A stretch of DNA of 39,056 nucleotides. It comes from Chitinophagales bacterium (GTDB lineage Bacteria > Bacteroidota > Bacteroidia > Chitinophagales > UBA2359). Within the stretch, counting starts at the first letter, position 1. Every line of letters begins with the position of its first letter. The notes under the pieces were generated by a model. That model had not been told where the DNA came from. It saw nothing but the letters and a program-made list of their open reading frames with translations, and did no database searches. Below are positions 18,927 to 39,056 of this stretch, in pieces. The position numbers and the translations under genes were made by a program. The stretch is from contig JAEUUX010000062.1 of the NCBI GenBank assembly GCA_016787295.1, positions 1 through 39,056 of the forward strand. Reading direction: 5' to 3'.

Positions 18927-19392
18927 TATACTGAATTGAAAATACTTTTCGGATTTGATAATAGACGATGTCACGCACTCGTCCCCAAATGTAACATCAA
19001 TTAACGATCATTTGCCGTTCCTCCAAATGCTATTATCGTAAGTGACAAATGGTGATTCATCTTTTTTGCTCACCCAAACAGCAGCAAAAAAGGGTGTTCT
19101 TTTTTCGAGTGGATTCGTCCGGCGTGCTGCGGTCTTTGCTTAATTTTGTGGTAGCAAACAAAATCGTAGACATTTTGTCTATTTTATCGTATTAGCTACC
19201 ACAAAATGTAGGCAATCGTTGAGGCAGTTTATCTTTCTTTGTATATTTCTTCGTGACTTTCATGCCTCAACGACCGAAACAGCACTATTTCCGGTGACGA
19301 AAATAGTGTAAGCAGATGTGCGTTTTTTGTGACCGCAATTATTCGACTGTCAACATTTGACAAAATCCGAAGACTGTATTCAATTTAGTATA
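18927..19392 (-). mobile_element. MITE-like element, copy 1 (inverted relative to copies 2 and 3)
   Basis: The 466-bp unit begins TATACTGAATTGAAAATACT and ends in the complement of TATACTAAATTGAATACAGT. It is the reverse complement of the units at 37007-37471 and 38591-39056. The imperfect terminal inverted repeats extend over about 30 bp and both ends are TATA, consistent with TA target duplication as in IS630/Tc1-type elements (inference). No open frame of useful length exists, so it is non-autonomous. The interior has hairpins, including TTTTGTGGTAGC/GCTACCACAAAA. Confidence 0.85.
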
Positions 19393-19402
19393 AAAAAACT
19401 AT

Positions 19403-19450
19403 GAATGACGAATGGTGATTTCTCCTTTTTGCTCACACTGCAACAAAAAA
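19403..19450. repeat. Fragment resembling the interior of the MITE-like element
   Basis: The stretch around GACGAATGGTGATT, then TTTTTGCTCACACTGCAACA, closely matches the inside of the neighbouring element (near 19041-19090: GACAAATGGTGATT...TTTTGCTCACCC). It lies 11 bases outside the element's end. It may be the remnant of an older, truncated copy. Confidence 0.55.
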
Positions 19451-19528
19451 CTGAAAACTTTGGAGAGATATTAATAAATAAAAGGCACTTTATGGCCTAT
19501 TTTTTTATTTTTTTGACTTCTCCGAAGT

Positions 19529-19981
19529 TCATAGCTGATTAAGAACGTAATATTCCCCATCAACAATTTTCTGCTTTGTAACAGTAAAAATTGGGTTGGC
19601 AAATATTCTGTGAGTTATTGTATCAGGCATTAGAAAAATTACTTCTTGGTTTTTTACTCCTTCTACATTTGGAAAAACATCTTCGTGATAAATCACCTTA
19701 TTGGTATTATCCGTAAAAACTAATCTTCTTGCTACATCGACATAATAAGGATATTTCTGATTTAGTATCTGCTCTACCACCTCTAATGAGGCAGTTTCTC
19801 TAAATACATACAACTTACTCCATCTGAATGTAGTAAGTTGCGAAATATCGACTTGACAATTTTCGCTCTTGCAGTTTTTCTTTATTGAGGTAGCTATTTC
19901 GTTTTCTAATTTTCCGTTGCCATTGTTTAAACAACCTATAAAAAAGAAAAATGCTGCTATAAAAATTATTTGCTTCTTCAT
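19529..19981 (-). CDS. Small hypothetical lipoprotein
   Basis: The 150-residue protein has a lipoprotein signal (KKQIIFIAAFFFFIGC; lipidation at C17) and a mature domain of about 130 residues. Recognisable stretches are FRWSKLYVFRETASLEVVEQ and IYHEDVFPNVEGVKNQEVIF. I recall similar small lipoproteins of unknown function in Bacteroidota but no characterised homologue. It starts 39 bp after the vWA gene on the same strand and is probably co-transcribed with it. Its codon use and composition are more A/T-rich than the vWA gene, and it sits next to a MITE-like element, so it may be a late addition. Confidence 0.75.
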   Translation of the reverse strand: MKKQIIFIAAFFFFIGCLNNGNGKLENEIATSIKKNCKSENCQVDISQLTTFRWSKLYVFRETASLEVVEQILNQKYPYYVDVARRLVFTDNTNKVIYHEDVFPNVEGVKNQEVIFLMPDTITHRIFANPIFTVTKQKIVDGEYYVLNQL

Positions 19982-20020
19982 AGAATTGAGAAACCCATAA
20001 AATTTTTCGTAATGCTGTTT

Positions 20021-21313
20021 TTAGAATCCAATATAAAAACCTTTGTTTTCGCGTGCCAAATCGTTCATGAATTTCACACCTTTGTTGCTCATGTTTTCGT
20101 TGCGGAAATCGGAGCCAACACCAATACAGTTGATTACTCTGCCTGAATTTTTGGATTTGATGTCTGCTAAAACATCGGCAATATCATCATCGTCACAATC
20201 TAATTGCCCTACACGTTTGGTGGGTGCGCCATCGGAGAGGAGGATAATTGTTCCAGCAGCTTTGTAGGCGGGTTCATCGAGGACATAGTTCATTGCTTGG
20301 CGTGTGGGTGTACAGCCAAAGGCTTTGAGGCTACTCAAATAGCGATAGATGTCGTATTTTGTGCTTTCGGTGACGGTGGTAAGTTTACCATATTTATAAC
20401 CGTATTCTTCGGTTTTGCTTTTGGGAAAAATCACCACATCAACTTTATAGTTTTCGTCCATCGTTGCCACCATCATTTTTAGTCCAGCTTTTACTTGGTC
20501 TAATTTATCGGTTTCGGGAGCATCGTCCATACTGCCTGACAAGTCGACTACGAACACGACATTTTTGTCTTTGATATCAAAACCTGTTTTAGGATTTGGT
20601 TTGCAATCGGCAATTTGTTGTTGTTGGAGTTTGATGGTTTGATCTTTGGCTTTAATGGTTTCTTGAAGTTGTTTAATTTGTTCGGCGGTATTTTGGGTGA
20701 CTTCGGTTTGTGTTTTAAGTTTATCTTCTTGGTTTTTGATGGTCAGGAGTTGCTTGTTGACTTCTTCTTGCAGTTGCACCAATTGTTTTTCGAGTTCGCC
20801 TTTGTTTTCGAGGTTCTTTTTGATTTGTTCGTAGTCTTTGAGTTGTTCTTTCGTTACTTCGAGTTCGTTTTGCAATTTGTCGCGCTGTTCTTTGACTTCT
20901 ATCATTGTTTCAACGCTTTCTTTGGTTTTTGAATCCAAGGCGTTGAGTTCTTTTTCCAATTTATTGATACGATCTTGCAAAAATTGGCGCTGATTGTCGC
21001 ATTGTGCCAAGCTGTGTTGCAAGGACTCGATGCGTGCTTCCAAGTTTTTGGTAGTGTTTTGCACTTCCTTAAACTTTTGTTCCAATGGTTTGTAGACCGC
21101 TTCGGGAACCGATTTTTTGAGTTTGGCGAGCATACCGTCCATTTGAACGACTTGTTGTTTGAGTTCGTCCAATTGTTCGAGTTCCTCTAATTTATGTTTT
21201 ACGTCGCCTGTCAATTTAGGCACCATAATAAACAAAATGATCATGGCTCCAAGGGCTTTGGAGAATAGGATAAGAAATAAGTGATAATCGATATGTATTT
21301 CACGTCTTGCCAT
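20021..21313 (-). CDS. Membrane-anchored coiled-coil protein with von Willebrand A domain
   Basis: In this 430-residue protein, residues about 11-33 form one transmembrane segment (YHLFLILFSKALGAMIILFI). Residues 37-237 are an extended Glu/Lys/Gln-rich coiled coil. Residues 250-430 are a vWA domain with a complete MIDAS: DLSGS at 257-261, T335 in CTPTRQA and D361 in LLSDG. It should bind a divalent metal and a protein partner. There is no signal peptide beyond the anchor. It follows the PD-(D/E)XK-like gene by 60 bp and precedes the lipoprotein gene by 39 bp. A PP2C phosphatase gene lies nearby, a pairing known from TerY-type vWA/phosphatase/kinase modules, though no kinase is present here. 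Confidence 0.85.
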   Translation of the reverse strand: MARREIHIDYHLFLILFSKALGAMIILFIMVPKLTGDVKHKLEELEQLDELKQQVVQMDGMLAKLKKSVPEAVYKPLEQKFKEVQNTTKNLEARIESLQHSLAQCDNQRQFLQDRINKLEKELNALDSKTKESVETMIEVKEQRDKLQNELEVTKEQLKDYEQIKKNLENKGELEKQLVQLQEEVNKQLLTIKNQEDKLKTQTEVTQNTAEQIKQLQETIKAKDQTIKLQQQQIADCKPNPKTGFDIKDKNVVFVVDLSGSMDDAPETDKLDQVKAGLKMMVATMDENYKVDVVIFPKSKTEEYGYKYGKLTTVTESTKYDIYRYLSSLKAFGCTPTRQAMNYVLDEPAYKAAGTIILLSDGAPTKRVGQLDCDDDDIADVLADIKSKNSGRVINCIGVGSDFRNENMSNKGVKFMNDLARENKGFYIGF

Positions 21314-21373
21314 TGGCTATTTGTTTAGCGTTTTTTTTATGATGAAATGCGCGCGCGAATAGTAGATGGGTGT

Positions 21374-22018
21374 TTAGTTGGTGTGTAAGATGAGGTTTTT
21401 TAGTGCTTTTAATATGTGTATAATATTGATGAGGTCGTGGGTTTGTGTAGCATCATACGTTCTACTGAAACAGTAGGAGGTGTCATGCAAAGTAGTAAAA
21501 GTCCATTGTTTGCCTTGTACATAACAACCATAAATGGGTTGTTTATTGGCGTTTTGTTGTTGAGCAATCAGCATGGCTACCAACATTTGTCCTTCTGCGT
21601 CGTCGTTGGTGTTTTTGCTTTTTTTAAATTCTTGCAGAAAAAAATAAGGTGTTTGTGGTGTATTGATACCAAAAGGACGAGCTATCATGGCATCACACAC
21701 AACCGACAGTGGAGTGTCTTGCACCACTCCTGATAGCGCACGTTCATAAAATACTTTGGCTTTTTGGGGTATTTCTAGGTCGGCATAATCTATTACAAAA
21801 CTCAAAAAGTGCATTTTTAGTTCTTCTTCATTCCAGACATCGCCTTCTAAAAAAAGTTTTTGGCGTTTGGTTTCTAAAAAATTGGGTAGATGATACAGGG
21901 GTGCTACGACGACATTGAGCCAATGGGTAAGTATATCACATTCGACTCCGCGCACCAACCCAAAGTGTCCTACTATTTGGTCTATTGCATATCGTTGTTT
22001 TTTTATATCTAATTTCAT
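21374..22018 (-). CDS. PD-(D/E)XK-like protein of unknown role
   Basis: This is a 214-residue protein from the ATG at 22018 (MKLDIKKQRYAIDQIVGHFG). An in-frame ATG 21 bases upstream is also possible. A D109...E130-x-K132 arrangement (VCDAMIA, then PYFFLQEFKKSK) followed by DAEGQMLVAMLIAQQ fits the core strand-strand-helix of the PD-(D/E)XK nuclease-like superfamily. The tail PIYGCYVQGKQWTFTTL, then an IIHILKALKNLI helix, resembles a common uncharacterised Bacteroidota/cyanobacterial family. The family call comes from motif spacing only, so nuclease activity is an inference. It is the first gene of the minus-strand cluster with the vWA protein and lipoprotein. Confidence 0.6.
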   Translation of the reverse strand: MKLDIKKQRYAIDQIVGHFGLVRGVECDILTHWLNVVVAPLYHLPNFLETKRQKLFLEGDVWNEEELKMHFLSFVIDYADLEIPQKAKVFYERALSGVVQDTPLSVVCDAMIARPFGINTPQTPYFFLQEFKKSKNTNDDAEGQMLVAMLIAQQQNANKQPIYGCYVQGKQWTFTTLHDTSYCFSRTYDATQTHDLINIIHILKALKNLILHTN

Positions 22019-22084
22019 ACAAAAGTTATTTGACCTCAAAAAAGTTTTGAGCTAATTTGCGGTTACAGGTTGTTTCTTTGTGCG

Positions 22085-22092
22085 CAAAAGTA
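22085..22092 (-). promoter_or_regulatory. Putative -7 element of the PD-(D/E)XK-like/vWA cluster
   Basis: On the minus strand TACTTTTG matches TAnnTTTG, 67 bases upstream of the chosen start. No convincing -33 element was found. Confidence 0.4.
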
Positions 22093-22218
22093 CACAAAAT
22101 AGTTCGAAAATATGGCACATTCCTGCAAAAAACGCTACTTTTGTGAAAAAAATGTGGTTTTTTGTAGGAAAAGCTAAAAGATTTTGCGACTTGTTGTGCA
22201 AAGATACAACTTTTTTGC

Positions 22219-22226
22219 TACCTTTG
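22219..22226 (+). promoter_or_regulatory. Second plus-strand -7-like element
   Basis: TACCTTTG lies on the plus strand with TTG at 22194-22196, 22 bases upstream. It faces the 105-bp repeat copy B and is more than 550 bases from the next gene. It may drive an unrecognised transcript or be chance. Confidence 0.25.
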
Positions 22227-22334
22227 TGGTGTTTTTTATTCAAAAAATGCTGTGTGGTTTTATTCGTTGTATTTAGTGACGATAGGAAAAAGGCTTTAGC
22301 CTGTTTTAAAAAAGTATTGGGTACAAAAGTTTGA

Positions 22335-22435
22335 GTGGCGAAGCGCGTTAGGGATTGTAGGGGCAGCCGTTAGGCTGGTGCTTGCACCGAAGCAAAGCGA
22401 AGCCCCGTAAAGCCCGACCCGCAGGGGAACGCCCA
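22335..22435 (-). repeat. 105-bp dispersed repeat, copy B
   Basis: This is the reverse-oriented copy of the repeat at 9063-9170. It has GCTTCGCTTTGCTTCGG where copy A has GCTTCGCTAACGCTTCGG, and keeps the CAGCC/GGCTG stem. It lies in the 776-bp gap between the vWA cluster and the PP2C gene. Confidence 0.9.
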
Positions 22436-22576
22436 ACTAATTATTGCTGTCATAATGACTCTAATTGGCGTTGTTAGTGGTGGTTAGAGGATTTAATAAT
22501 GGGCGAGTTTTGTAAGAATTTGTAATAAAACCCCAAAAGTATTGACACAAAATAAGATTAAGTACAAAAATAGTAG

Positions 22577-22584
22577 TACCTTTG
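22577..22584 (+). promoter_or_regulatory. Putative -7 element of the PP2C gene
   Basis: TACCTTTG matches TAnnTTTG and would give a leader of about 200 nt before the ATG at 22795. No -33 element at normal spacing is visible. Confidence 0.4.
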
Positions 22585-22794
22585 GCGCAGTTTTTGCTAA
22601 TTATGGGGCTAAAATGTTTTTTGACCCTATTTTAGGTCAACTTTTTGCTATATTCTTGCCGCTTTTCTTGTTATTTTTGAATGTTCACTATTGGTTAAGT
22701 TTTTGCTATTTGTGTTACAGTTAACGAAATGATAGCCTTCCACACACTAATGGGCTATCCCACCAATTTATTGTTCATGTTTTCTCACTAAGCT

Positions 22795-24204
22795 ATGGCA
22801 ATTCAAATTCAACAAATTGCGTTTTTGAACGAAAAAGGCAAACGAAAGAACAACGAAGACAACATTATGCCTTTGGGTAGCAGCGCATCGTCCGATACCA
22901 AACTGTTTTTGGTGTGTGACGGCGTAGGTGGTGCCAACAAAGGCGAAGTAGCTTCTTTATTGGTCTGCCAAAATTTCGATGCTTTTTTTCAGCAACACCC
23001 CAATCGCACTGTCGATGCGCAGTATTTGCATGATGCCCTTCGGTATGTAGAAGGCAAATTGAGCGAATACGCCAACGAACACAGCGAGTGCGCGGGTATG
23101 GCAACCACTCTCACCCTGCTCTATCTCGATGATGTCAATCAGCGTGCTGTCATTGCTTGGTGCGGTGATAGTCGGGTGTATCATATACGCGACAAAGAAG
23201 TGCTGTTTGTGACCTCCGACCACTCGTTGGTCAACGAATTGGTGAAACGCGGCGAAATTACTGCCGAAGAAGCCCACAAACACCCACAACGCAATGTGAT
23301 TTTGCGCGCCATTTCGGGCAAAGAAACCCCCACCTCCATCGACATCTATGAAACTTCCGATTTGCGGCAGCATGACTATTTCTTGCTTTGCAGCGATGGT
23401 ATTTTGGAGAGCATAGACGAGAGAATCCTTACCACTCTGTTGCCCAATACCACTATCAATACCGAACAAAAAAAGGATTTGATAAGGGAAATGTGCGATA
23501 TGAACTCCAATGACAACTTCTCGATGTATCTTATCGAGTTGGGAGAGGTGAGCCAACCCAGCCCGCAAGCTACTACCAAACCCATCGAACCCCTAAGTAC
23601 AGCAGAGGTCAACAAACCCACTTCGGCTCCCATAGATACAACGCTGATTAGCCAAATTCCACCCGCCATTGACGATAATAGCGCAGGTAGCACCAAATTT
23701 GTCTATCTATTGGTCACAGCCGCTATCCTGGCGTTGGGCGTATTGGGTTTTGTGCAGTGGAAAAACAACAAAGCCGCCGAAGCCTTGAACGAACAAATAC
23801 AACAAGCCAAAACATGGAGCGAAAGTGGTGACCTTGCCTCTTTGATGCGTGCCGACTCTTTGCTACAGGCGTTGCAGAAACACGAACCGCAAGACTCGAG
23901 TATCGCTAATTTGTTGACACAAGTGGAACTAAAAATTAGTGAACAAAAAGGAGTGGTTTGGCAAGATTCGTTGCGCGCACACGTCCAACAAAAATGGAAC
24001 AATGCCGACGACTCTATTGTCTTTAAACGCCTAAAATATAGCCTTGTGTTATTAGACAGTTTTGTTAATAGCAAAGATAGTCTACAATTGCAAATAGCTT
24101 TTGCAAAAATAGATTCTGCTATCCAAAGGCGCGACTCCATTAAAGCAAGTTTGCAAGCACCAGCAAAACCTGCAAAACCTGTTGTAAAAGATAGTATTCA
24201 GTAA
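22795..24204 (+). CDS. Membrane-anchored PP2C-family serine/threonine phosphatase
   Basis: In this 469-residue protein, residues 1-250 form a PP2C/PPM phosphatase domain. The metal-binding motifs are NED (20-22), CDGVGG (41-46), GDSR (124-127), SDG (200-202) and DN (240-241, with Ser where DNxT usually has Thr at the end). A Pro/Thr-rich linker (about 253-300) leads to one transmembrane helix (FVYLLVTAAILALGVLGFVQ, 302-321). A Lys/Gln/Asp-rich C-terminal part of about 145 residues would lie on the other side of the membrane. It should remove phosphate from Ser/Thr of cytoplasmic proteins. No Ser/Thr kinase gene is in the window. The neighbouring divergent cluster encodes a vWA protein, hinting at a common signalling role. 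Confidence 0.9.
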   Translation: MAIQIQQIAFLNEKGKRKNNEDNIMPLGSSASSDTKLFLVCDGVGGANKGEVASLLVCQNFDAFFQQHPNRTVDAQYLHDALRYVEGKLSEYANEHSECAGMATTLTLLYLDDVNQRAVIAWCGDSRVYHIRDKEVLFVTSDHSLVNELVKRGEITAEEAHKHPQRNVILRAISGKETPTSIDIYETSDLRQHDYFLLCSDGILESIDERILTTLLPNTTINTEQKKDLIREMCDMNSNDNFSMYLIELGEVSQPSPQATTKPIEPLSTAEVNKPTSAPIDTTLISQIPPAIDDNSAGSTKFVYLLVTAAILALGVLGFVQWKNNKAAEALNEQIQQAKTWSESGDLASLMRADSLLQALQKHEPQDSSIANLLTQVELKISEQKGVVWQDSLRAHVQQKWNNADDSIVFKRLKYSLVLLDSFVNSKDSLQLQIAFAKIDSAIQRRDSIKASLQAPAKPAKPVVKDSIQ

Positions 24205-24238
24205 AACTCTGTTTAGGTTTATCAGCATAAATCAACCA

Positions 24239-24278
24239 AAACGCCGATGGAAGACACATTGTCCTCCCATCGGCGTTT
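24239..24278. terminator. Bidirectional terminator between PP2C and TonB receptor genes
   Basis: AAACGCCGATGG (24239-24250) pairs with CCATCGGCGTTT (24267-24278), a 12-bp stem with a 16-nt loop. It is flanked by A residues on one side and T residues on the other, in the gap between two convergent genes. Confidence 0.7.
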
Positions 24279-24307
24279 GTTATTGTACATACTCACAACC
24301 TTACTCA

Positions 24308-26671
24308 TTACCCCTTAGTATTCGCATTTTTTTTCTCACTATAATCAAAATTATAGTTAAGGCGCAAAGTGAAGTTGCGCGGTGCTTCAATTTTTACAGG
24401 ACTAATGGCATATTCCAAATTGGTGAGGTTGTTACAAATAAAAGACATACTAAAACTTTTGTTGGCAATATAACTCAGCCTTGCACCCCACACACTCGTG
24501 CCACCGTCGTGTTGTTCGCGGTAGGTTTTCACACCGGGCATTGCCAAGTTAAATGCAATATCAATAGCTTCCATAAAACTCAAGTATTGATAGGATAAAC
24601 CGACAGTCAATTTATGTATGGTTGTCTCGGCATCTATTTTGGCTATGTGTCGGTTGCGGTATTTCAGCACATTATAGTCGGCGGTGCTTTGGGAACGTTG
24701 AAGACTATCAAACGTCCTGTAAGTTGGGTCTACGTAGGTATAACCCGCTAAAATGTTGGTTGGCATACCGAGCAAACTACCTTGCCCTACTACTGAACAA
24801 TCAATACCCCAAATGCGCGTATCTCCCACATTCAAAGATTTGTAGCCTATGCCCGGATAATTGCCTATGGGCGAGGCAGGCGTACCAAACGAGAACTCCA
24901 TCATATTGTTATATTCGCTAATAAACACTGCCACATCACCAAAACCTTTCCATTCCGACACCTTGAAACCTTGTTTAATACCCAATTCGGCACTCCAACC
25001 TGTTTCGGAACGTAGCTCAGGATTGGGAAATACGCCAATGCTAAAACCAGCACCACCACTACCCACATAAGTATTCAAAAATTTCTCCGAAATGCTTGGA
25101 AAACGATATGCTTCGCCATAAGAAGCCCTAATAAAAGTGGCACGGGTCAATTCGTAATTCATGCCTGCTCGCAAAACGGGCTTGGCTTCCGAAGCTAAAG
25201 TATCAATACGGTTGTGTTCGTAGCGCGCACCTATAGAGACATTCATGCGTTGCATAATTTTTTTATCTGCCTGCACATAACCACCAAAATTCCTAAATTT
25301 GTGGTTGCCGCCCGTATAGAGTTCTGCTTCCACAAAAGCCGCACTTGTCACCAAACCCGCAGTAACAACCATATCTGCTTTGCTAAAACGTTTCTGAAAT
25401 TGGTATTCACCATAATAAAGGTCAGACAAAGTGGTGCGGTTTTGTGTGGTGTGGTTGTTATTTTGATAATAGCGCATCACCAACTTTTGTTTCACCTCCG
25501 TAGCGGCATTAAAATACTCAATAAAAGGATCAACAGTCAACAAATAGGTGCGGTTTTCTATTGTATCATTTAAGCCCCAAATCTGATAAGCTTTTTCGTC
25601 AATACCATTCCAAATCAAAAAAGTGCCACTCGCAACAGCTTGATAATTGCTGTTCAAACCGATGGACAATCCCGGTACATTTTTGAATCGATAGCGCATA
25701 TTGACATTTGCACGTCCGCGTCGCTCAAACTCGGTGGCGCGGAAACTTTTTTTGTCATACAAATAGCTGCCCATCACCAAATCAAACTGTCCATATCTTT
25801 GACGATGTGCAAAAGTAGCGCCGCGTTCATAAGGTTGTTCGTTGCCCCACCACGATTTTTGTACGGTATCAGTAGGCGTACCGTCGGGTGAATAGTGGAT
25901 AACTTGGTTGTTGCGCGGATTTTGGTAGATATTGTTAAACAAAGCTATTTTTGTCACAGGTTCAGATTTGGGATAGGCGGTGCGCATATTAATAATACCG
26001 TTCATAGCTGCCGAACCATACAAAGCCGACGACGCGCCTTTAATAATCTCTATCTGTTCGAGATTTTCTATAGGCAAAAAATCCCAACGCGGGAAGCCCA
26101 AGTCAGCAGTCAATATTGGTAAATCGTCCATCAACAACAAAACACGGCTACCCGCGCCGTATGAAAAGCCACTACCACCGCGAATGTTCGCTTGTTGATC
26201 AACCACCACCACACCCGGCACTTTTTGAATAGTTTGGTCGGCAGAAGTGCTATTAATGTTATCCACCAAAGCAGGTTTTATGACTTCCATCGACACTGTT
26301 TGCTCGCTTAGTTTTTGTTCAAATTTTGAGCCTGTAATCACCACAGGGTCGAGCAAAGCATCATTTTCCACCAAATTAAAATCCAAGGTGCGCACTTCGT
26401 TAGCTCCCAAACTCAACTCCATGCGTTGTTCTGTTAATCCCACATACGTACAGATTAGTTCATAGCGGTCGGGAGGAACAGCAATAGTATACAAACCATC
26501 AAAATCAGTTACTACCCCATATTGCGTCGTAGCGGACAGCAAACGAATAGAGGCATTAGGCAAAGTTTCTTGTGTATCTTTGTTGCGCACCACCCCACTT
26601 AGTTGAGCGTTTTGTGCCAACACTTGTAAACAAATCAATCCGCTTAATAGAGAAAGTAAACGTACCAGCAT
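24308..26671 (-). CDS. TonB-dependent outer-membrane receptor
   Basis: The protein has 787 residues from the ATG at 26671, which gives a clean signal peptide (MLVRLLSLLSGLICLQVLAQ). The frame can be opened upstream to 26710, but that start lies before the predicted promoter start. An N-terminal carboxypeptidase-regulatory-like domain (GVVRNKDTQETLPNASI, VTDFDGLYTIAVPP) precedes the plug domain (DQTIQKVPGVVV, IRGGSGFSYGAGSRVLLLMD, IEIIKGASSALYGSAAMNGI). A 22-strand-type barrel ends in LRLNYNFDY. It lacks an adjacent SusD gene, so a siderophore, cobalamin or metal substrate is more likely than a polysaccharide. The substrate cannot be stated. Confidence 0.92.
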   Translation of the reverse strand: MLVRLLSLLSGLICLQVLAQNAQLSGVVRNKDTQETLPNASIRLLSATTQYGVVTDFDGLYTIAVPPDRYELICTYVGLTEQRMELSLGANEVRTLDFNLVENDALLDPVVITGSKFEQKLSEQTVSMEVIKPALVDNINSTSADQTIQKVPGVVVVDQQANIRGGSGFSYGAGSRVLLLMDDLPILTADLGFPRWDFLPIENLEQIEIIKGASSALYGSAAMNGIINMRTAYPKSEPVTKIALFNNIYQNPRNNQVIHYSPDGTPTDTVQKSWWGNEQPYERGATFAHRQRYGQFDLVMGSYLYDKKSFRATEFERRGRANVNMRYRFKNVPGLSIGLNSNYQAVASGTFLIWNGIDEKAYQIWGLNDTIENRTYLLTVDPFIEYFNAATEVKQKLVMRYYQNNNHTTQNRTTLSDLYYGEYQFQKRFSKADMVVTAGLVTSAAFVEAELYTGGNHKFRNFGGYVQADKKIMQRMNVSIGARYEHNRIDTLASEAKPVLRAGMNYELTRATFIRASYGEAYRFPSISEKFLNTYVGSGGAGFSIGVFPNPELRSETGWSAELGIKQGFKVSEWKGFGDVAVFISEYNNMMEFSFGTPASPIGNYPGIGYKSLNVGDTRIWGIDCSVVGQGSLLGMPTNILAGYTYVDPTYRTFDSLQRSQSTADYNVLKYRNRHIAKIDAETTIHKLTVGLSYQYLSFMEAIDIAFNLAMPGVKTYREQHDGGTSVWGARLSYIANKSFSMSFICNNLTNLEYAISPVKIEAPRNFTLRLNYNFDYSEKKNANTKG

Positions 26672-26699
26672 AGCTTGGGTTTTAAGGTTATTTAAGGTG

Positions 26700-26707
26700 T
26701 AAAGGTA
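26700..26707 (-). promoter_or_regulatory. Near-consensus -7 element of the TonB receptor gene
   Basis: On the minus strand TACCTTTA differs from TAnnTTTG only in the last base. It is 28 bases upstream of the chosen start. Confidence 0.35.
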
Positions 26708-26830
26708 CAAAGTTTTATATAGTTTTTGTCACTGAGGTTTGTTTTTGACGAAAATAGTCCTTTTGGTCAAGTAAATGGATAAAAAAAAGCAAAATCTCCC
26801 ATACAAAATGGCAGATAAATGATATAAATT

Positions 26831-26936
26831 TGGGCGTTCCCCTGCGGGTCGGGCTTTACGGGGCTTCGCTTCGCTTCGGTGCAAGCACCAGCCTAACGGC
26901 TGCCCCTACAATCCCTAACGCGCTTCGCCACTCGAC
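26831..26936 (+). repeat. 105-bp dispersed repeat, copy C
   Basis: This has the same orientation as copy A and is closest to copy B (GTTCCCCTGCGGG, GCTTCGCTTCGCTTCGG). The CAGCC-TAAC-GGCTG stem is conserved. It fills most of the gap between the TonB receptor and lgt genes. Confidence 0.9.
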
Positions 26937-26954
26937 AATACAGCACCTCAAAAC

Positions 26955-30700: not shown

Positions 30701-30719
30701 ACATGCTTTATAGATGCGG

Positions 30720-30859: not shown

Positions 30860-30966
30860 TGGGCGTTTCCCTGCGGGTCGGGCTTTACGGGGCTTCGCTA
30901 ACGCTACGGTGCAAGCACCTGCCTAACGGCAGCCCCTACAATCCCTAACGCGCTTCGCCCTTCGAA
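30860..30966 (+). repeat. 105-bp dispersed repeat, copy D
   Basis: This has the same orientation as copies A and C. It differs from the others in the local stem: CTGCC-TAAC-GGCAG (30919-30932) replaces CAGCC-TAAC-GGCTG, a double change that keeps the pairing. Confidence 0.9.
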
Positions 30967-31030
30967 CATTTTTATAATGTTCTATAAGATAATAGCATTT
31001 TATCCCAACAAAATACATAAAACACAACAC

Positions 31031-31147
31031 TAACATCGCTACTCATAATGCCGAAAAACCAAACCCAACCAGGCGTGTGTGTCCTCCACTCGCACATTCC
31101 GCACCAATAATAGGTAACATCGCTACTTGTATCGATGAAAAACCAAA
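31031..31147. repeat. Direct repeat TAACATCGCTACT...AAAAACCAAA
   Basis: Two copies, 31031-31063 and 31115-31147, share TAACATCGCTACT at the start and GAAAAACCAAA-like ends. A related sequence occurs at 28564-28590. In two of the three copies CATCG and CGATG flank the centre and can form a small hairpin. Confidence 0.55.
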
Positions 31148-31171
31148 ATAATCTACCATTTAGCAGAAATA

Positions 31172-31214
31172 AAACAAAAAAAGCCCTATTTACCAATCGT
31201 AAAATAGGGCTTTT
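31172..31214 (-). terminator. Rho-independent terminator of the second T9SS protein gene
   Basis: AAAAGCCCTATTT (31179-31191) pairs with AAATAGGGCTTTT (31202-31214), a 13-bp stem with a 10-nt loop. On the minus strand it is followed by a T-rich tract. It is 48 bases past the stop codon. Confidence 0.75.
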
Positions 31215-31262
31215 GGGGTGTTGAAAGATAGTGAAAAAACGATTTTGTGCAAAGCTAAAAGC

Positions 31263-33956
31263 CTATTGTTTGCACCACTTAGCGACCGCCGTTTCCGTAT
31301 CGCTTTGTACTACAAAAGTATAGACACCCTTCGCCCACACTTGGCTATTACACCATAAAACATTGCTACCAGCTTGCGTTTGATAAGTTTGTGTATGTAA
31401 CAACTGTCCTGTAATACTATATACTTGCAAACGAACCGGACTTGTTTGTGGATTATTAATGTTCAAATAAACCTCATTAGTATTACCCAAGCCATATACC
31501 TGCTCGATTTGCAAAGTAGCATGACTTTGGGTGCGTTGCAACACAACCACTTCCTTAGCCGTTGTGGTTTCGCCATTATAATCTGTTTGCGACAAACGAT
31601 AATAAGCAATACCGTTAGGAGCGTAGCGGTCTAAGTATTGATAATTTTGTTCTGCAAAACTTGTACCTGCACCATTCACACGCGTCAAGGCAACAAAATG
31701 TGTACCATCGGTCGAACGTTCTAAGGTAAAATAATGGTTATTTGTTTCAGAAGCCGTTACCCAAGTCAATAAATTGCCGTTATCTGTAATTTTACCTGCA
31801 AAATCAAGCAATTCGATGGGTGTTTTTAGACAAATAGGGAAGTCCGCAGCCGCATTACCCACACAACCCAAATCATCAACAGCCATAAATTCATAATTAT
31901 TCGGTGTTTGGCTCGATGTAAAGACAACAGAAGCCGTTTGACCGTTGGCTAAAGTTTCAGTAATCGTTCCTGTTACGGCATATTGGTTATCAGGATTAAA
32001 ACTGCCATACCCACCATTAGGCAAAATCACCACAGTATAGTCACCAATACTCCAATCACAGTCTTCATTGACCGTAATAACCACTGGCGAAAGGAAAACC
32101 ACAGGCGTACCGTTGGCAACATCAGTACAACCGCTGTTTAAAATAGGTGTGCCGTCACCACTATCAGGACCCGCCACAGCCGAAATATAATAAGTCGTAT
32201 TGTATTGCAAAGTGGCGTTATCCGTATAAGCAAAAGTACCACCACCGTTGCTTGCCAACACCTGACCCAAAGCATCACCCGCATTAGTATGCAAATAATA
32301 GGCTAAAACATTGCCATTGTCGACAACTGCGCCCGTTGTAGTAGCGCCAACCGTTTCACCCGAACAAACGACTTGTTGTTGCGTGGGCATAGTTCCTGCA
32401 TTGGCAGGTGTGCCGGTCACAAAAGTAAAAGCCGTTGCTCCGTTCAGTTGCAAAGCACCATTCACCACCACATTGTTAATCGTTTGTCCGTTATAGCTCA
32501 AATGATAAGACTCGTTTCCAAGCAAACAAGTGGAAATGTTACTTGGACAACCCGTGATGGAATACATACCAAAGGTAGCACCAGTCGAAGATGCGATTAA
32601 ACTCACCGATTGCGGGTTTTGTATAGAGGCTTCACAACCCACACAACCTTCAATGCTAACAGGAATATTGAGTGTTAAACCCAAATTTTGTTCTTCCAAA
32701 GTCACCGAATTAGCTGCTTGACAACCCGTTGCATCAGTAGCCGTGACACTATAAAAACCTTCGCCCAAATCACTCAAAGTAGAGGCAGCGCCTGTTTCAG
32801 TAAAGCCGTTGCTCCAAACAAAGGTAAAAGGAGGATTTCCCACACCCGTCGCAACAATGTTTCCACCTGTGGGATTAGCACAACTTGGATTAACAGCAGA
32901 TAGGGTAGGAGGGGTGCAACAAGCCAATTCCACTTTAAACTTATAGTTCGGGTCTTGCGGACAAGGACTGGAAGAGTTCCAGCTACCTGTTTCGGCATCA
33001 GAGAAATTCAAAAACTCTATAGTAAGGTCTTCGCTACTAAATCCTTCGGGACAATCGTTTTTAGTTGTAATAGTGAGACAAAACAGCCAGTCACATGCGT
33101 CGCCATTGCTATTGTCTCCATAATTATTGCCCGGCTCATCGTCCATCGTTCCCGAAGTACTACCTGATGTAGTTTCGTAGAAAAAACCAGGTCCTTGTGG
33201 CCCTGCATTGATAGCAGAAGTATTGTCGGGCGTACACAGTTCGTACCAATCCCAAACACCACTATCACTACAACTTGCAGGTGGTTCAGCAATAAGGGTA
33301 GAAATATCCCAACCTGGTCCAAAGACAGGCACAATGCCATGCAGCCAGTCCGCAGAATTTTGCACATAACCGCCAACACTCAAACACATTTGAACAGTTT
33401 GTCCTGGTGTATAGTTGCCATTTTGTGGCAAAGGATCTACAAAGAACGTTTGTGAATTGATACAATAGTTAGTCGTAATGTCATAATTGTTAATACAAAG
33501 TTCAAAAGACCCAAAGTCGGTGGTATTGGTGCTACTCACTTGTATATAGTATATAGCACCAGGCGCAACAGGAGCAAAAGTAGTAGAGATAACGCCATTG
33601 TTGCTTATTTCGCAATCGCGCCCAATCAAACCCTCACATTCTCCTTCATAGAATGCCAACACAACATTGTCTATAGAACTATTGAGGTCGACTTCCATAA
33701 TATTGCCGACGGCTTGTACCATATACCACACATCAGCAGCAGCGGAAGGCATATCTCCACCGTTTAGGCAGTTAGCTTGGTTAGTAAAAGGTTGTTCTGC
33801 CAAGGCATTGATGTTGTTGCCGTCAATACAAGTTTGTATTCCCGGAATGAGGTCGGGGAAAACCTCAGCGGTGTAACAATTGTCGTTGCTGACTTGCGCC
33901 CAAAGTGAGGAAACACTCAATAGAAGCAAAATGCAAAAGGTATAAATTTTATTCAT
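31263..33956 (-). CDS. T9SS-secreted protein with SprB-like repeat
   Basis: The protein has 897 residues from the ATG at 33956, giving signal peptide MNKIYTFCILLLLSVSSLWA. An N-terminal module starting SNDNCYTAEVFPDL has a WYMVQAVGN strand and a YYIQVSS strand, like the NDEC modules of the 1405-residue protein. A Cys-rich region follows, then a SprB-like repeat (PSCANPTGGNIVATGVGNPP, then FVWSNG and YSVTATDATGCQ). Next comes an NAGTM-type module with AYYLHTN and TTYYISAVAG that matches the repeat of the larger protein. The chain ends with HYFTLERSTDGTHF and a T9SS sorting domain (VRLQVYSITGQLLHT, AKGVYTFVV, AKWCKQ). It is expected to be exported through the outer membrane to the surface. No catalytic domain is visible. 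Confidence 0.85.
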   Translation of the reverse strand: MNKIYTFCILLLLSVSSLWAQVSNDNCYTAEVFPDLIPGIQTCIDGNNINALAEQPFTNQANCLNGGDMPSAAADVWYMVQAVGNIMEVDLNSSIDNVVLAFYEGECEGLIGRDCEISNNGVISTTFAPVAPGAIYYIQVSSTNTTDFGSFELCINNYDITTNYCINSQTFFVDPLPQNGNYTPGQTVQMCLSVGGYVQNSADWLHGIVPVFGPGWDISTLIAEPPASCSDSGVWDWYELCTPDNTSAINAGPQGPGFFYETTSGSTSGTMDDEPGNNYGDNSNGDACDWLFCLTITTKNDCPEGFSSEDLTIEFLNFSDAETGSWNSSSPCPQDPNYKFKVELACCTPPTLSAVNPSCANPTGGNIVATGVGNPPFTFVWSNGFTETGAASTLSDLGEGFYSVTATDATGCQAANSVTLEEQNLGLTLNIPVSIEGCVGCEASIQNPQSVSLIASSTGATFGMYSITGCPSNISTCLLGNESYHLSYNGQTINNVVVNGALQLNGATAFTFVTGTPANAGTMPTQQQVVCSGETVGATTTGAVVDNGNVLAYYLHTNAGDALGQVLASNGGGTFAYTDNATLQYNTTYYISAVAGPDSGDGTPILNSGCTDVANGTPVVFLSPVVITVNEDCDWSIGDYTVVILPNGGYGSFNPDNQYAVTGTITETLANGQTASVVFTSSQTPNNYEFMAVDDLGCVGNAAADFPICLKTPIELLDFAGKITDNGNLLTWVTASETNNHYFTLERSTDGTHFVALTRVNGAGTSFAEQNYQYLDRYAPNGIAYYRLSQTDYNGETTTAKEVVVLQRTQSHATLQIEQVYGLGNTNEVYLNINNPQTSPVRLQVYSITGQLLHTQTYQTQAGSNVLWCNSQVWAKGVYTFVVQSDTETAVAKWCKQ

Positions 33957-34003
33957 AATGTAACTTGTTTGATAAATCAATTGTTAAATAGCAAAAGCAA
34001 GCG

Positions 34004-34011
34004 CAAAAGTA
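34004..34011 (-). promoter_or_regulatory. -7 element of the second T9SS protein gene
   Basis: On the minus strand TACTTTTG matches TAnnTTTG, 47 bases upstream of the chosen start. The nearest TTG is 24 bases upstream, which is longer than usual. Confidence 0.4.
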
Positions 34012-34107
34012 CGCAATTTTTTATTGATTTATAGGCAAGTAGCGCATTTTTTTTATGCTCAACCTAATTTTGGGTATCACAAAAGCAATTTTTATGCTGA
34101 AATAGGA

Positions 34108-34147
34108 CAAAAAGAAATCCGCATACCTCAAAAAGATATGCGGATTT
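34108..34147 (-). terminator. Rho-independent terminator of the TlpA-like gene
   Basis: AAATCCGCATA (34115-34125) pairs with TATGCGGATTT (34137-34147), a perfect 11-bp stem with an 11-nt loop. A T-rich run follows on the minus strand. Confidence 0.7.
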
Positions 34148-34169
34148 TTGTTTGGTGCAATGAAAAAGC

Positions 34170-34673
34170 TTATTCAGCGGACAATTCGGCAATTTTTTTC
34201 TCCAACTCCAACTCGTCGCCTTCGGTATAGCCTGCATGTTTATAAACAATTTCGCCTTTTTTGTTCAACACAACAGTGTAAGGAACTTCTAAGCCGTTAA
34301 GGGCGCGTTTTAGTTCTTCTTTGGTATCCAACAGCACCTCATATTCCCAACCTTTGCCATTCACGTAGGAAGGAACACGGCTTGAGGTACGTTGGTCATC
34401 AACACTCACAGCCACTAATTGCATGTTGTATTTTTCTTTCCATTCGTCATACAAAGCGGCTATATTGTCCAACTCTTTGCGACAAGGCACACACCATGTT
34501 GCCCAAAAAGAAAGCACAACTACTTGTTCTTTTTTGCCATATGACTCGACATTAATTTTTTCGCCTTTGGTGTTGGCTAATTCCAACGAAGGTAAGCGCT
34601 CTTGCGCCCAAAGACTACTCATGCCTGCCAACAAAAGGAAGGCAAATAGCCCAAAATGCTGTAATAATTTCAT
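34170..34673 (-). CDS. TlpA-like periplasmic thioredoxin
   Basis: The 167-residue protein has a signal peptide (MKLLQHFGLFAFLLLAGMSS, cleaved near LWAQ) and a single thioredoxin-fold domain of the TlpA/AhpC-TSA type. The redox motif is WATWCVPCRKELDN (CVPC). The cis-proline region EVPYTVVLNKKGEIVYKHAG is present. It probably reduces disulfides of exported proteins or apocytochromes in the periplasm. It sits between two genes for exported proteins and is divergent from the DUF6029-like gene. Length is normal for a minimal TlpA protein. Confidence 0.9.
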   Translation of the reverse strand: MKLLQHFGLFAFLLLAGMSSLWAQERLPSLELANTKGEKINVESYGKKEQVVVLSFWATWCVPCRKELDNIAALYDEWKEKYNMQLVAVSVDDQRTSSRVPSYVNGKGWEYEVLLDTKEELKRALNGLEVPYTVVLNKKGEIVYKHAGYTEGDELELEKKIAELSAE

Positions 34674-34731
34674 TGTAAAAGTTTATTTTAGAATTTTATT
34701 GGTCTAATAAGGTGTAAAAACGCACGCTTTG

Positions 34732-34762
34732 TTGTAAGAGTGCTTATTATTAATTACTTTTG
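34732..34762 (+). promoter_or_regulatory. Promoter of the DUF6029-like gene
   Basis: TTG at 34732-34734 and TACTTTTG at 34755-34762 are separated by 20 bases. Both match Bacteroidota -33/-7 elements. The leader would be about 60 nt. Confidence 0.6.
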
Positions 34763-34829
34763 CGCCCAAGTTTGCTTGTTATTATTGACTCTATAGCTCA
34801 CTAAAGGTTTAAAAAAACGATAAATAAAC

Positions 34830-36482
34830 ATGTTTTTTCAGCGATTCAACAAGTGGCTGCTTTGGGCGGCTATTATGACAGTGAGTGCTTCGGCGCTGGC
34901 ACAAGAAAAAGGGCAATTGTCGGGTAATTTTCAGATGAACACGCGCTTCTATGAACGTGATAGTACACGTGGAGCGTATGGCACACCTTTCTATGAATAC
35001 CTTTTTTATGGTGCTGACTCTTGGCTCAACTTAAACTATCGAATATCTGGTTTTGACATCGGTATTCGTTTTGATGGTTTTCTCAATTCACAGTTGATTA
35101 ATCCTGTACGCGAAACAAATGCGGCAGCTATCGGACGTTGGTATGTCACCAAAGACATAGATAAGTTGCGCGTGAGTGTAGGTTATTTATACGACCAATT
35201 TGGCTCAGGCTTGATTTATCGCAGCTTTGAAAACCGTCCTTTGGGTATTGACCAATCTTTGTTTGGAGCTTCTGTCACCTATAAATTGAACAATAATTGG
35301 CAAATAAAAGGAACAACAGGACGACTCAAACGCCAACTAAATCCTGACCAAACAACCGTAGAACTCTACAAACCTGTCATCAAAGGCATCAACTTAGAAG
35401 GCTATGTGGCGGTGAATGAAAAAGTAAGTCTGAGTCCCGGCATAGCAGCTTTGGGTAGAACAATGGACAGCAAAACCATGCAAGGATTAGCCACCGAAAT
35501 CAATAGTTATGTGGATAGCTCCAAGCGTTTTGTGCCAAACTACAACACTTATGCCTTTAATCTATACAACAACCTCAACGTAGGTAATTTCTCGTGGTAT
35601 ATAGAAGGAGCTTTGAAAACAAAAGACGTGTTGCGCGATGTTGCGGGAACGCTCATCCAACCTAAACATGGCTATGTGGTGTTACAAAACTTAGGCTACA
35701 CCCGAAAAGGTTTGGGTATATTACTACAAACGCGCTACATCAAATCGTTTGACATGCGCACATCACCCAACGAAACATTTAATCAAGGTTTGTTGAATTT
35801 TATGCCGCCTTTAGCACGCCAAAACAGTTCGCGCCTCTTGGCTCGATATGCTCCTGCTACACAATTGTTGGGTGAAATGGCAATACAAGCCGATGTAACA
35901 TATACACCTAAAAAAGGTTTGACCTTCAATGCTAATTATTCGTTGCTCGAAAACTTAGACCGCGAACGCCTTTACAACGAAATATATGTAGATTGCGAAA
36001 TAAAACCTTTGAAAAAGAAATACAAAATGACGGTAGGTGTGCAGTCTTTGGATTATAACCGTTTTGTATACCAACAAAAAGAAGGTTTTGTAAATAGCCT
36101 AACACCTTTTGTTGATTTTTCGTATAAACTAAACAAAAAAACGGCTATCAAATCTGAACTCTCCTATATGATAACCAAGCGCGACGTGCGCCTATTTGGC
36201 AAAGAAGACCCACATCCCGACCAATTACAAGACTTTGGCGATTGGGCTTGGGCAATGGTTGAGCTAACAGTAGCACCACATTGGGCTTTTTCTGCCAGCG
36301 ATATGTATACTATAGGTAAAGACATTCACTATCCAACTTTTGCTGCCTTCTTTACCCAAAAAGCCAGCCGTTTTGGAGTGACCTATACCAAACAACCCGA
36401 AGGTATTGTATGTACAGGTGGCGTGTGCCGATTTGAACCTGCTTTTAGTGGTGTAAAAATAGATGTGACCAGCAGTTTCTAA
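34830..36482 (+). CDS. DUF6029-like outer-membrane beta-barrel protein
   Basis: The 550-residue protein has a signal peptide (cleavage near ASALAQ) and a body of alternating amphipathic strands ending in a C-terminal Phe (VKIDVTSSF), as in outer-membrane barrels. Features I associate with the DUF6029 family are GNFQMNTRFYERDS, ADSWLNLNYRISGFDIGIRF, VGYLYDQFGSGLIYRSFENR and LGIDQSLFGASV. Members occur across Bacteroidota near housekeeping envelope genes, and their function is not established. The gene is monocistronic with its own promoter and is divergent from the TlpA-like gene. Confidence 0.7.
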   Translation: MFFQRFNKWLLWAAIMTVSASALAQEKGQLSGNFQMNTRFYERDSTRGAYGTPFYEYLFYGADSWLNLNYRISGFDIGIRFDGFLNSQLINPVRETNAAAIGRWYVTKDIDKLRVSVGYLYDQFGSGLIYRSFENRPLGIDQSLFGASVTYKLNNNWQIKGTTGRLKRQLNPDQTTVELYKPVIKGINLEGYVAVNEKVSLSPGIAALGRTMDSKTMQGLATEINSYVDSSKRFVPNYNTYAFNLYNNLNVGNFSWYIEGALKTKDVLRDVAGTLIQPKHGYVVLQNLGYTRKGLGILLQTRYIKSFDMRTSPNETFNQGLLNFMPPLARQNSSRLLARYAPATQLLGEMAIQADVTYTPKKGLTFNANYSLLENLDRERLYNEIYVDCEIKPLKKKYKMTVGVQSLDYNRFVYQQKEGFVNSLTPFVDFSYKLNKKTAIKSELSYMITKRDVRLFGKEDPHPDQLQDFGDWAWAMVELTVAPHWAFSASDMYTIGKDIHYPTFAAFFTQKASRFGVTYTKQPEGIVCTGGVCRFEPAFSGVKIDVTSSF

Positions 36483-36546
36483 AATACCATTTTTCGGTGG
36501 CAAAAATAGTACGTATTGGGCATAAATGCAGGGCTTCTCCCCGTTT

Positions 36547-36580
36547 TTGCCCAATTTTTAACATTTTTTACGTATCTTTG
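36547..36580 (+). promoter_or_regulatory. Promoter of the rhodanese gene
   Basis: TATCTTTG at 36573-36580 matches TAnnTTTG, with a TTG at 36547-36549 (23-base spacer). It supports a start at 36611, because the frame from 36497 would begin upstream of transcription. Confidence 0.5.
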
Positions 36581-36610
36581 CTCCCATTTTTATCAATTTC
36601 CACAACAGAT

Positions 36611-36913
36611 ATGTTAGATATTACTTCAGAAGAACTAAAAAAACGCTTAGATGCAGGCGAAGACCTCATCGTGATCGACGTGCGCGAACCCTACGAGTAC
36701 GAAGCGTTTAACATTGGGGTAGAAAATATCCCTTTGGGGCAAATCAACCTTGCCATAGAACAATTAGGTAACTATCGCAACCGCGAAATCGTTGTATTGT
36801 GTCGGTCAGGTATGCGAAGCGGACAAGCCAAAATGTTTTTACTTGGCAACGGTTTTAGCAACGTCCGAAATCTCATTGGCGGTATGCTCGATTGGCAAGC
36901 CAAATTTGCATAA
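36611..36913 (+). CDS. Single-domain rhodanese-like protein
   Basis: The 100-residue protein starts MLDITSEELKKRLDAGEDL. It is a complete single rhodanese domain: IVIDVREPYEYEAFNI at the N-terminal CH2A-like signature, the active-site loop CRSGMRS with its catalytic cysteine, and GGMLDWQAKFA at the C-terminus. It would carry a persulfide sulfur in the cytoplasm, resembling PspE/GlpE-type proteins. The upstream extension to 36497 lacks domain character and precedes the promoter. It is followed by a hairpin and then the second MITE-like element. Confidence 0.9.
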   Translation: MLDITSEELKKRLDAGEDLIVIDVREPYEYEAFNIGVENIPLGQINLAIEQLGNYRNREIVVLCRSGMRSGQAKMFLLGNGFSNVRNLIGGMLDWQAKFA

Positions 36914-36930
36914 ATATCCCACCACACACC

Positions 36931-36960
36931 TTCGGACAATAGTGTTGTCTATTGTCCGAA
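36931..36960 (+). terminator. Hairpin after the rhodanese gene
   Basis: TTCGGACAATAG (36931-36942) pairs perfectly with CTATTGTCCGAA (36949-36960) around a 6-nt loop. There is no pronounced T tract. Part of the sequence resembles the neighbouring element's end (CTATTGTC...CCGAAAAG), so it may be derived from that element. Confidence 0.5.
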
Positions 36961-37006
36961 AGTATTGTTTGACCATCAGGTCTACATCTCCCACCAACAT
37001 GATAGC

Positions 37007-37471
37007 TATACTAAATTGAATACAGTCTTCGGATTTTGTAAAATGTTGACAGGCTAATAATTGCGGTCACAAAAATGTACAGATGCCTACACTATTTTCG
37101 CTGTCCGAAATAGTGCTGTTTCGGTCGTTGAGGCACCGAAGTCACGAAAAAAACAGACAAAGAATGATAAATTGCCTCAACGATTGCCTACATTTTGTGG
37201 TAGCTAATGTGGAAAAACAGACAAAAAGCCTACGATTTCGCTTGCTACCACAAAATTAAGCAAAGACCACAGCACGCCGGACGAATCCACTCGAAAAAGA
37301 ACACCTTTTTTTGCTAATTTTTGGGTGAGCAAAAAAGCAGAATCACCCTTTGTTGCTTACGATAATAGTATTTCGAGGAACAGCAAATGGTCGTTAATTG
37401 ATGTTACATTTTGGAGAGAGTGAGTAACATCGTCTATTGTCAAATCCGAAAAGTATTTTCAATTCAGTATA
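37007..37471 (+). mobile_element. MITE-like element, copy 2
   Basis: The 465-bp unit starts TATACTAAATTGAATACAGT and ends in the complement of TATACTGAATTGAAAATACT. It is a direct repeat of the unit at 38591-39056 and inverted relative to 18927-19392. Internal palindromes include CACTATTT...AAATAGTG, TCGTTGAGGCA (37125-37135)/TGCCTCAACGA (37173-37183) and ATTTTGTGGTAGC/GCTACCACAAAAT. No open frame is usable. It ends 29 bp before the AAA gene. Confidence 0.85.
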
Positions 37472-37500
37472 AATCCTAATTTTAAAAACTTAATAACCCA

Positions 37501-38580
37501 ATGCCCATTACGCAACAGGAACTCGAGCAGTTGCACCAAACCATCGATTGGCACGATTTGTTTTATCATGGTCGTGATAGTTTTCCCTATGAACTATACT
37601 ATTACAAATTGTTCAAAAAAGTGCCGCAATTTGTGACAGGACCCTACAACATTGACCGTCCTAAATTGCACACCGCTTTGCAAGAAACCTATAACGACCA
37701 ACTTGTAAAGTGCTATGAAGGTAATTACATTAACGAAGAAAACGAAAAAAGTATTCAAAGTTGTGCGTATGCCATGACCACCGAAGTGGTAGTAGGCTTT
37801 ATGCACTCACCTTTTGTGTGTTATAGTGATGACACACCACCCGAAATAGTAGAACAGATTAGCAAGATGTTTGTCGACTGTTGCGTCGAAGAAAAAGACC
37901 CCATCGACACCATTTACATCCTCAACAGCGCCCCTCACCGCGGATATTATTTTGAACCTTTTGATGTCAAAAACACCGCCCTCGATTTAAACCTCAACTA
38001 TAACGACGACCTTAAACCCGTTGACGAAGTGATAGTCAGCCGCCTATCTACACCACGCGACAAAGGTTTGGTGGTTTTGTATGGAAAACCGGGAACAGGC
38101 AAAACATCTTATATCCGTTATCTGATTCATAAAGTAGAAAAACGGAAATTGTTTATTCCGCCCAGCCTTGCCGAACATATTGCCGACCCACAATTTATCT
38201 CTTTGCTCAATAGCTACCAAGACTCCATCTTGATTATCGAAGATGCTGAAAATATTATCCAACAACGACATAGTTTGGGTAGTAGTGCCATCTCCAATTT
38301 GCTGAACCTCACCGACGGTTTGTTATCCGATTGTTTTAGTATCCAAATTATTTGCACTTTCAATAGCGACATTTCGACCATCGACAAAGCACTTTTGCGA
38401 AAAGGACGTTTGATTGCTCGTTATGAGTTTAAAGAATTAACGGGCGAAAAAGCACAACAATTAGCCACACATTTGGGCATACAACAAGCCATTAACACAC
38501 CCATCACCTTAGCCGACGTATACAATTATCATGAAACTGATTTTGGTGATAAAAAAAGTGCCATTGGCTTTGGCAAATAA
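37501..38580 (+). CDS. BCS1-like AAA ATPase
   Basis: The 359-residue protein has an N-terminal region (1-185) without recognisable motifs and a C-terminal AAA domain. Walker A is GKPGTGKT (195-202). Walker B is ILIIEDAEN with the E-D order seen in BCS1-type AAA proteins, sensor 1 is N288 in CTFNSD, and ALLRKGRLIARYEF (298-310) carries the arginine-finger region in BCS1-like order. It likely forms a hexamer that remodels a protein partner. Eukaryotic BCS1 translocates the Rieske protein, but that function should not be transferred. It is tightly enclosed by two MITE-like elements (29 bp before, 10 bp after), leaving no room for its own promoter or terminator outside them. Confidence 0.85.
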   Translation: MPITQQELEQLHQTIDWHDLFYHGRDSFPYELYYYKLFKKVPQFVTGPYNIDRPKLHTALQETYNDQLVKCYEGNYINEENEKSIQSCAYAMTTEVVVGFMHSPFVCYSDDTPPEIVEQISKMFVDCCVEEKDPIDTIYILNSAPHRGYYFEPFDVKNTALDLNLNYNDDLKPVDEVIVSRLSTPRDKGLVVLYGKPGTGKTSYIRYLIHKVEKRKLFIPPSLAEHIADPQFISLLNSYQDSILIIEDAENIIQQRHSLGSSAISNLLNLTDGLLSDCFSIQIICTFNSDISTIDKALLRKGRLIARYEFKELTGEKAQQLATHLGIQQAINTPITLADVYNYHETDFGDKKSAIGFGK

Positions 38581-38590
38581 AAAACTGTTA

Positions 38591-39056
38591 TATACTAAAT
38601 TGAATACAGTATTCGGATTTTGTAAGATGTTGACAGCCGAATAATTGTGGTCACAAAAACGTGCCTCTACCTACACTATTTTCGTCACCCGAAATAGTGC
38701 TGTAGTCGGTCGTTGGGGCACCGAAGTCACGAAAAAACAGACAAAGAATGATAAATTGCCTCAACGATTGCCTACATTTTGTGGTAGCTAATGTGGAAAA
38801 ACAGACAAAATGCCTGCGATTTTTCTTGCTACCACAAAATTAAGCAAAGACCACAGCACGCCTGACGAATCCACTCGAAAAAGAACACCTTTTTTTGCTA
38901 CTTTTTTGGGTGAGCAAAAAAGTAGAATCACCATTTGATGCTTACGATAATAGTATTTCGAGGAATGGTAAATTGCTGTTAATTGATGTTACATCTTGGG
39001 ACGAGTGCATGACATCGTCTATTATCAAATCCGAAAAGTATTTTCAATTCAGTATA
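38591..39056 (+). mobile_element. MITE-like element, copy 3
   Basis: The 466-bp unit runs from TATACTAAATTGAATACAGT to a terminal CAATTCAGTATA that coincides with the window's end. It is in the same orientation as copy 2 and about 90% identical to it by eye. The 13-bp internal stem ATTTTGTGGTAGC (38776-38788)/GCTACCACAAAAT (38828-38840) is perfect. Sequence beyond the window would show the right target site. Confidence 0.85.

Follow-up and report, generated by a model that had tools for sequence, protein, structure and literature searches.

The closest described systems to the element considered here are the RUP elements of pneumococcus, which likewise are intergenic and non-autonomous, occur in about 100 copies and insert at TA (PMC2229807), and for which mobilisation by an IS630 transposase has been proposed (PMC2229807). 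RUP differs in being 107 bp long, with 9-bp perfect ends in common with its known partner IS630-Spn1, whereas the present element is 465 bp long with imperfect ends of about 30 bp, and its partner element was not found in the searches described below. The Correia/NEMIS elements of Neisseria share with it a terminal TA, terminal inverted repeats and many copies (PMC2229807), but measure 107–155 bp; their transcripts form stem-loops (PMC2229807), comparable to the fold predicted here, and RNase III processing and an IHF site are features of Correia/NEMIS. By analogy, the present family would work like RUP or Correia elements. Elements of the IS630/Tc1/mariner group such as ISY100 also have TA as the target that they duplicate on insertion (PMC2170065), but the present element carries no transposase gene and its ends are unlike those of the resident IS630. 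An IS-derived MITE of Cardinium (Bacteroidota) is similarly confined to one bacterium, probably of the same phylum (PMC9769881), although there an IS982 parent has been identified. Lastly, hairpins shaped by template switching show arm homogenisation and full loop inversion (PMC8794818), as does one hairpin of the present element, but were described for other sequences and not for a MITE family. Against this background the element is a MITE family that is apparently unrecorded, of a known kind but with an unusual population structure, and it is set apart by its size, by invariant stems that contrast with shuffled loops, and by near-complete mixing of alleles.

Three copies lie in the window, the whole 39,056-nucleotide stretch of DNA that was analysed. 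An earlier note, made from the sequence, had placed them at 18927–19392 (inverted), 37007–37471 and 38591–39056, and end-to-end alignment showed these coordinates to be right to the base. The window ends at 39056 because the contig stops exactly at the element end. The features of the window, with the internal parts given for copy 2, are as follows:

18927..19392, minus strand: MITE copy 1, inverted, 466 bp
19406..19436, minus strand: degenerate relic of the element interior adjoining copy 1, 31 bp, 84% identity, E 0.001
37007..37471, plus strand: MITE copy 2, 465 bp
37007..37036, plus strand: left terminal repeat TATACTAAATTGAATACAGTCTTCGGATTT, of which the first TA is target duplication
37090..37115, plus strand: hairpin CACTATTT...AAATAGTG, with a diversity across copies of 0.6% in the stem and 16% in the loop
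37113..37126, plus strand: 5' side (GTGCTGT, GGTC) of the enclosing stem of the branched fold
37125..37183, plus strand: dyad TCGTTGAGGCA...TGCCTCAACGA with a variable loop
37192..37256, plus strand: 13-bp stem ATTTTGTGGTAGC...GCTACCACAAAAT with a hypervariable loop
37265..37275, plus strand: 3' side GACCACAGCAC of the enclosing stem
37314..37340, plus strand: sixth hairpin TTTTTG GGTGAG CAAAAA, whose arms covary between copies
37442..37471, minus strand: right terminal repeat TATACTGAATTGAAAATACTTTTCGGATTT, of which the outer TA is target duplication
37501..38580, plus strand: AAA ATPase gene between the directly oriented copies 2 and 3, given as context only
38591..39056, plus strand: MITE copy 3, 466 bp, with which the contig stops

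Copy 2 is 91% identical to copy 3 and 88% identical to copy 1. The imperfect terminal inverted repeats of about 30 bp starting TATACT, also claimed in the earlier note, match at 25 of 30 bases and are present in all full copies; the terminal repeat pattern occurs six times in the window against 0.12 expected in shuffled sequence. All the stems of the named internal palindromes were likewise found, except that in copy 3 one arm of the second dyad is TCGTTGGGGCA. The interior was said to carry no open frame, and in the consensus no stop-free run exceeds 55 codons in any frame; as copy lengths also differ by one or two bases, the element is non-coding. With full-length copies of 434–476 bp it falls within the 50–500 bp that, with lack of coding capacity, define a MITE.

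The genome is a fragmented metagenome-type draft of 5.42 Mb in 296 contigs. The high copy number and conserved size anticipated for the family hold genome-wide: at least 39 full-length copies (434–476 bp) were recovered, with flanks that do not align, together with 44 further pieces longer than 120 bp, most of them truncated where a contig stops, and many contigs end inside the element. The terminal repeat pattern matches 224 sites in the genome, as against 42 for a reversed-pattern control. Left and right ends, counted separately, number about 62–64 each, and the family is therefore estimated to total about 65 copies, which would make up roughly 0.6% of the genome. The element was absent from the 60 relatives searched, which are of other genera; two matches of 28–31 bp there are attributable to chance, as one lies within a coding gene and no element ends adjoin either of them. 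Nor was it found in 396 genomes of the order, where short matches in two genomes concerned only the motif of the sixth hairpin. A hairpin like the sixth, ACTTTTTTG..CAAAAAAGTA, was also seen outside any MITE in other genomes of the order (L162 1500–1540 and 1697–1737; L163 1500–1540). The element was not found in plasmid and phage collections, and exact terminal repeat or core patterns gave no match in the genome_contigs and viral_contigs collections. Smaller elements with the same TATACT...AGTATA ends were also seen, of 173 bp (L062 3053–3225), 197 bp (L070 3077–3273), 84 bp (L057 3117–3200) and 247 bp (L067 2853–3099), the 173-bp element differing in its interior, where a terminator-like AACCCCGCTCTAATTG hairpin lies; their possession of common ends suggests that the ends may suffice. 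An array of units of about 24 bp (GGCGCAATCACGAGAACAATT) lies at L047 about 3220–3760, a few hundred bases past a MITE-like end.

The insertion target could be read directly from empty sites, for which the two flanks of every copy were fused through a single TA and compared with other sequence of the genome. Three copies sit within other dispersed repeats, whose uninterrupted relatives provide the empty sites. For the copy at C67:28204–28666, the host repeat has seven empty relatives with the sequence GGGTTTATTTAAATACTT or close variants of it, while the filled site reads GGGTTTATT-element-AATACTT, which leaves exactly one TA before insertion. Relatives of the site at C273:14060–14525 read AGGGTTTAAACCC or close variants, again with one TA. 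At the third site, C145:4665–5138, the empty relative has a TA within about one base, the right end of this copy being TT. The test proposed in the earlier note thus gave a single TA at two sites and a TA within about one base at the third; the target duplication is therefore TA, and the element proper is TACT...AGTA. Among 36 readable targets T is favoured before the TA and A after it, giving a partly palindromic (T)TA(A); their AT content within 3 bp is 75%, against 60% at random TA sites, and they are more palindromic than these. The dispersed repeat that hosts MITEs and gave the empty sites is about 170–230 bp long, has AAACCCCGAAGGGGTGAAAT-like palindromes and is present in many copies in the genome (loci L018, L007, L045, L015, L081, L059, L087 and L077).

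The same evidence bears on whether copies might instead have been spread by segmental duplication or recombination, as parts of larger repeats. Such an origin would fit copies 2 and 3, since they lie in direct orientation on either side of one gene and copy 3 is the best match of copy 2 in the genome. Yet identity among the 39 copies ends sharply at TATACT...AGTATA, the flanks being unrelated, and the empty sites restore a single TA. Size-conserved copies, unalignable flanks and TA empty sites together exclude segmental duplication; as a general mode it is refuted, and we give this explanation next to no credence. The AAA ATPase gene, lying 29 bp and 10 bp from its flanking MITE copies, could be lost or amplified through recombination between them.

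Since duplication of a TA target is a hallmark of insertion by IS630-family transposases (PMC2170065), insertion of the IS630/Tc1/mariner type is indicated. The mobilisation of this type through TA that had been proposed from the TATA ends is accordingly upheld as regards the target; a transposase gene bearing the ends of the element was not found by a search of the draft, part of which was read directly, with three profiles (Pfam DDE_3, NCBIfam transpos_IS630 and DDE_Tnp_1). Neither the fragmented draft nor the 60 relatives yielded an autonomous element with TATACTRAATTGAA ends and a transposase. The genome does contain one relic IS630-like gene (DDE_3, transpos_IS630), apparently split across the ends of contigs C41 and C82 (L140/L141), but it was rejected as the partner, its ends, TATAGTCAAAACA..TC...TTTTCAATTAT, being like those of the MITE only in TATA and scattered positions. 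IS630-like loci in the relatives had no MITE ends, and the ends in common with an IS630-family element that mark an IS630-derived MITE were not observed. None of six DDE_Tnp_1 loci (IS4/IS5/ISAs1-type) is flanked by a pair of MITE ends. Among the candidates set aside, an ISAs1-type element in contig C85 (L094 1373–2571), with a 372-aa transposase and ends CAGGGCAAACGCATTAAAA, sits within a MITE copy and has its own 9-bp duplication ACACTATTT; an IS4-type element at the end of C145 is separated from the MITE end by about 167 bp, in which another repeat lies; and the C203 transposase lies outside the 173-bp small element that it adjoins. No parent IS can thus be assigned to the family. As the draft breaks in repeats, a multi-copy parent could be absent from it.

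Mobilisation might alternatively depend on another TA-duplicating transposase, such as that of some IS5-group elements, or on the resident IS630 in spite of its different ends. The missing cognate element, and the TATA with which the resident IS630 ends also start, lend this some plausibility; the divergence of those ends from the MITE beyond TATA and scattered positions, and the lack of paired MITE ends around the six DDE_Tnp_1 loci, make it on balance rather unlikely.

The copies are strikingly mosaic. For pairs of two-allele sites in the 39 copies, r2 falls from 0.35 at 1–2 bp to 0.06 at 21–30 bp and 0.03 beyond 50 bp, against a null of 0.0275 from shuffled alleles. Permutation of site order reproduced the short-range signal in 0 of 1000 trials, which excludes recurrent mutation alone. 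The variable segments that the stems separate are in mutual equilibrium, and recombined alleles are visible by eye. A pattern of this kind might be produced by misassembly, the more so as this is a metagenome-type draft of 296 contigs, many ending in the element. However, contig ends overlap by 140–141 bp, which was taken as the assembly k-mer, while linkage is lost within 50 bp, and the longest exact run common to two resolved full copies is at most 134 bp; k-mer chimeras are therefore unlikely as the cause, and an assembly artefact is very improbable. Repeated short-tract exchange between copies appears the likeliest cause of the mosaics. Among resolved full-length copies identity reaches about 95% at most, while copies at which the assembly breaks have identical stretches of about 140 bp in common. 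The family may be active or recently active, as had been suggested, but because the copies have probably exchanged tracts, which would blur their age, sequence divergence cannot date the insertions.

The stems are conserved in a quite different way from the loops. A single copy folds at −133 kcal/mol (z = −6.3), beating all shuffles. In the minimum-energy structure of the consensus an enclosing stem (GTGCTGT..GGTC/GACCACAGCAC) surrounds the TCGTTGAGGCA dyad and an extended ATTTTGTGGTAGC stem, and the alignment-based fold places the CACTATTT hairpin beside this nested branched core. The three named stems have a diversity of 1.2%, the remainder of the interior one of 9.5% (p = 1e-8), about an eightfold difference, and the loops of these stems vary by 13–16% across copies. 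The contrast between paired and unpaired positions in the single-sequence consensus fold is weaker, with 12 of 388 rotations reaching it, but runs in the same direction. Given the structure, 97.4% of cells pair, and there are seven double-change pairs against 2.5 in shuffles; only three of the seven lie in the conserved stems, in one sequence each, the sixth hairpin accounting for the remaining four. The conserved folding asserted in the earlier note is thus borne out by stems far less variable across copies than loops and by a nested branched fold.

The sixth hairpin requires separate treatment. Its arms vary in concert, with A-T, G-C and T-A versions, and its loop is inverted to the reverse complement in 3 of 39 copies. 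Arm homogenisation with loop inversion is a signature of replication template switching (PMC8794818), and hairpin evolution by template switching is described in RNA genes and inverted repeats (PMC8604942). The paired changes and inverted loops would seem best explained by this process; covariation of the sixth hairpin alone is not evidence of selection, because template switching gives the same signature.

Conserved stems and a nested branched fold would also be expected if the element served mainly as a functional structured RNA or as a regulatory repeat, spread by benefit to the host with transposition incidental. Against this, there is no strong preference of position or orientation, no Rfam match, and no occurrence in related genomes, and we regard it as improbable. 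At a permissive Rfam threshold the element gave matches of 13.8–17.3 bits, all below gathering scores, and in the window only a tRNA exceeded its gathering score. Of 34 copies with open frames on both sides, 13 have co-directional neighbours and point the same way as these, 5 have co-directional neighbours and point the opposite way, 8 lie between convergent genes and 8 between divergent ones. A promoter or terminator role by position was set aside on this lack of clear orientation bias, and placement relative to genes does not clearly point to a fixed regulatory role. In contig C229 a RidA-like gene, so named by eye from sequence, runs at its 3' end into the element, which provides it with a stop codon.

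Very probably, then, this is a TA-target MITE family of the IS630/Tc1/mariner type, whose copies later exchanged tracts and whose stems are kept by constraint on the fold. A TA-specific DDE transposase of that type would act in trans on the terminal repeats; elements would be cut out and then inserted at AT-rich TA sites, where the TA is duplicated, both the transposase class and the cut-and-paste mode being what we infer. After insertion, copies would swap short tracts by ectopic gene conversion, for which the near-invariant terminal repeats and stems may serve as stretches of identity, making each copy a mosaic of loop alleles. Constraint on a single strand able to fold, of RNA or DNA, would preserve the stems, and the changes in the sixth hairpin would come from template switching during replication. 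More tentatively, and with considerable doubt, the copy population might be selected for a branched hairpin core acting single-stranded, its loops freely shuffled through stem-anchored short-tract exchange.

If that were true, this would be in effect a sexually recombining MITE population within one genome. Independently of that reading, linkage equilibrium among its copies beyond tens of bp makes the family a record of how frequently sequence passes between short dispersed repeats of a bacterial genome, and the opposition of invariant stems to shuffled loops separates folding constraint from shared ancestry, which is usually hard in repeat families. The family also offers a clean example of a MITE with direct empty-site evidence of TA targeting.
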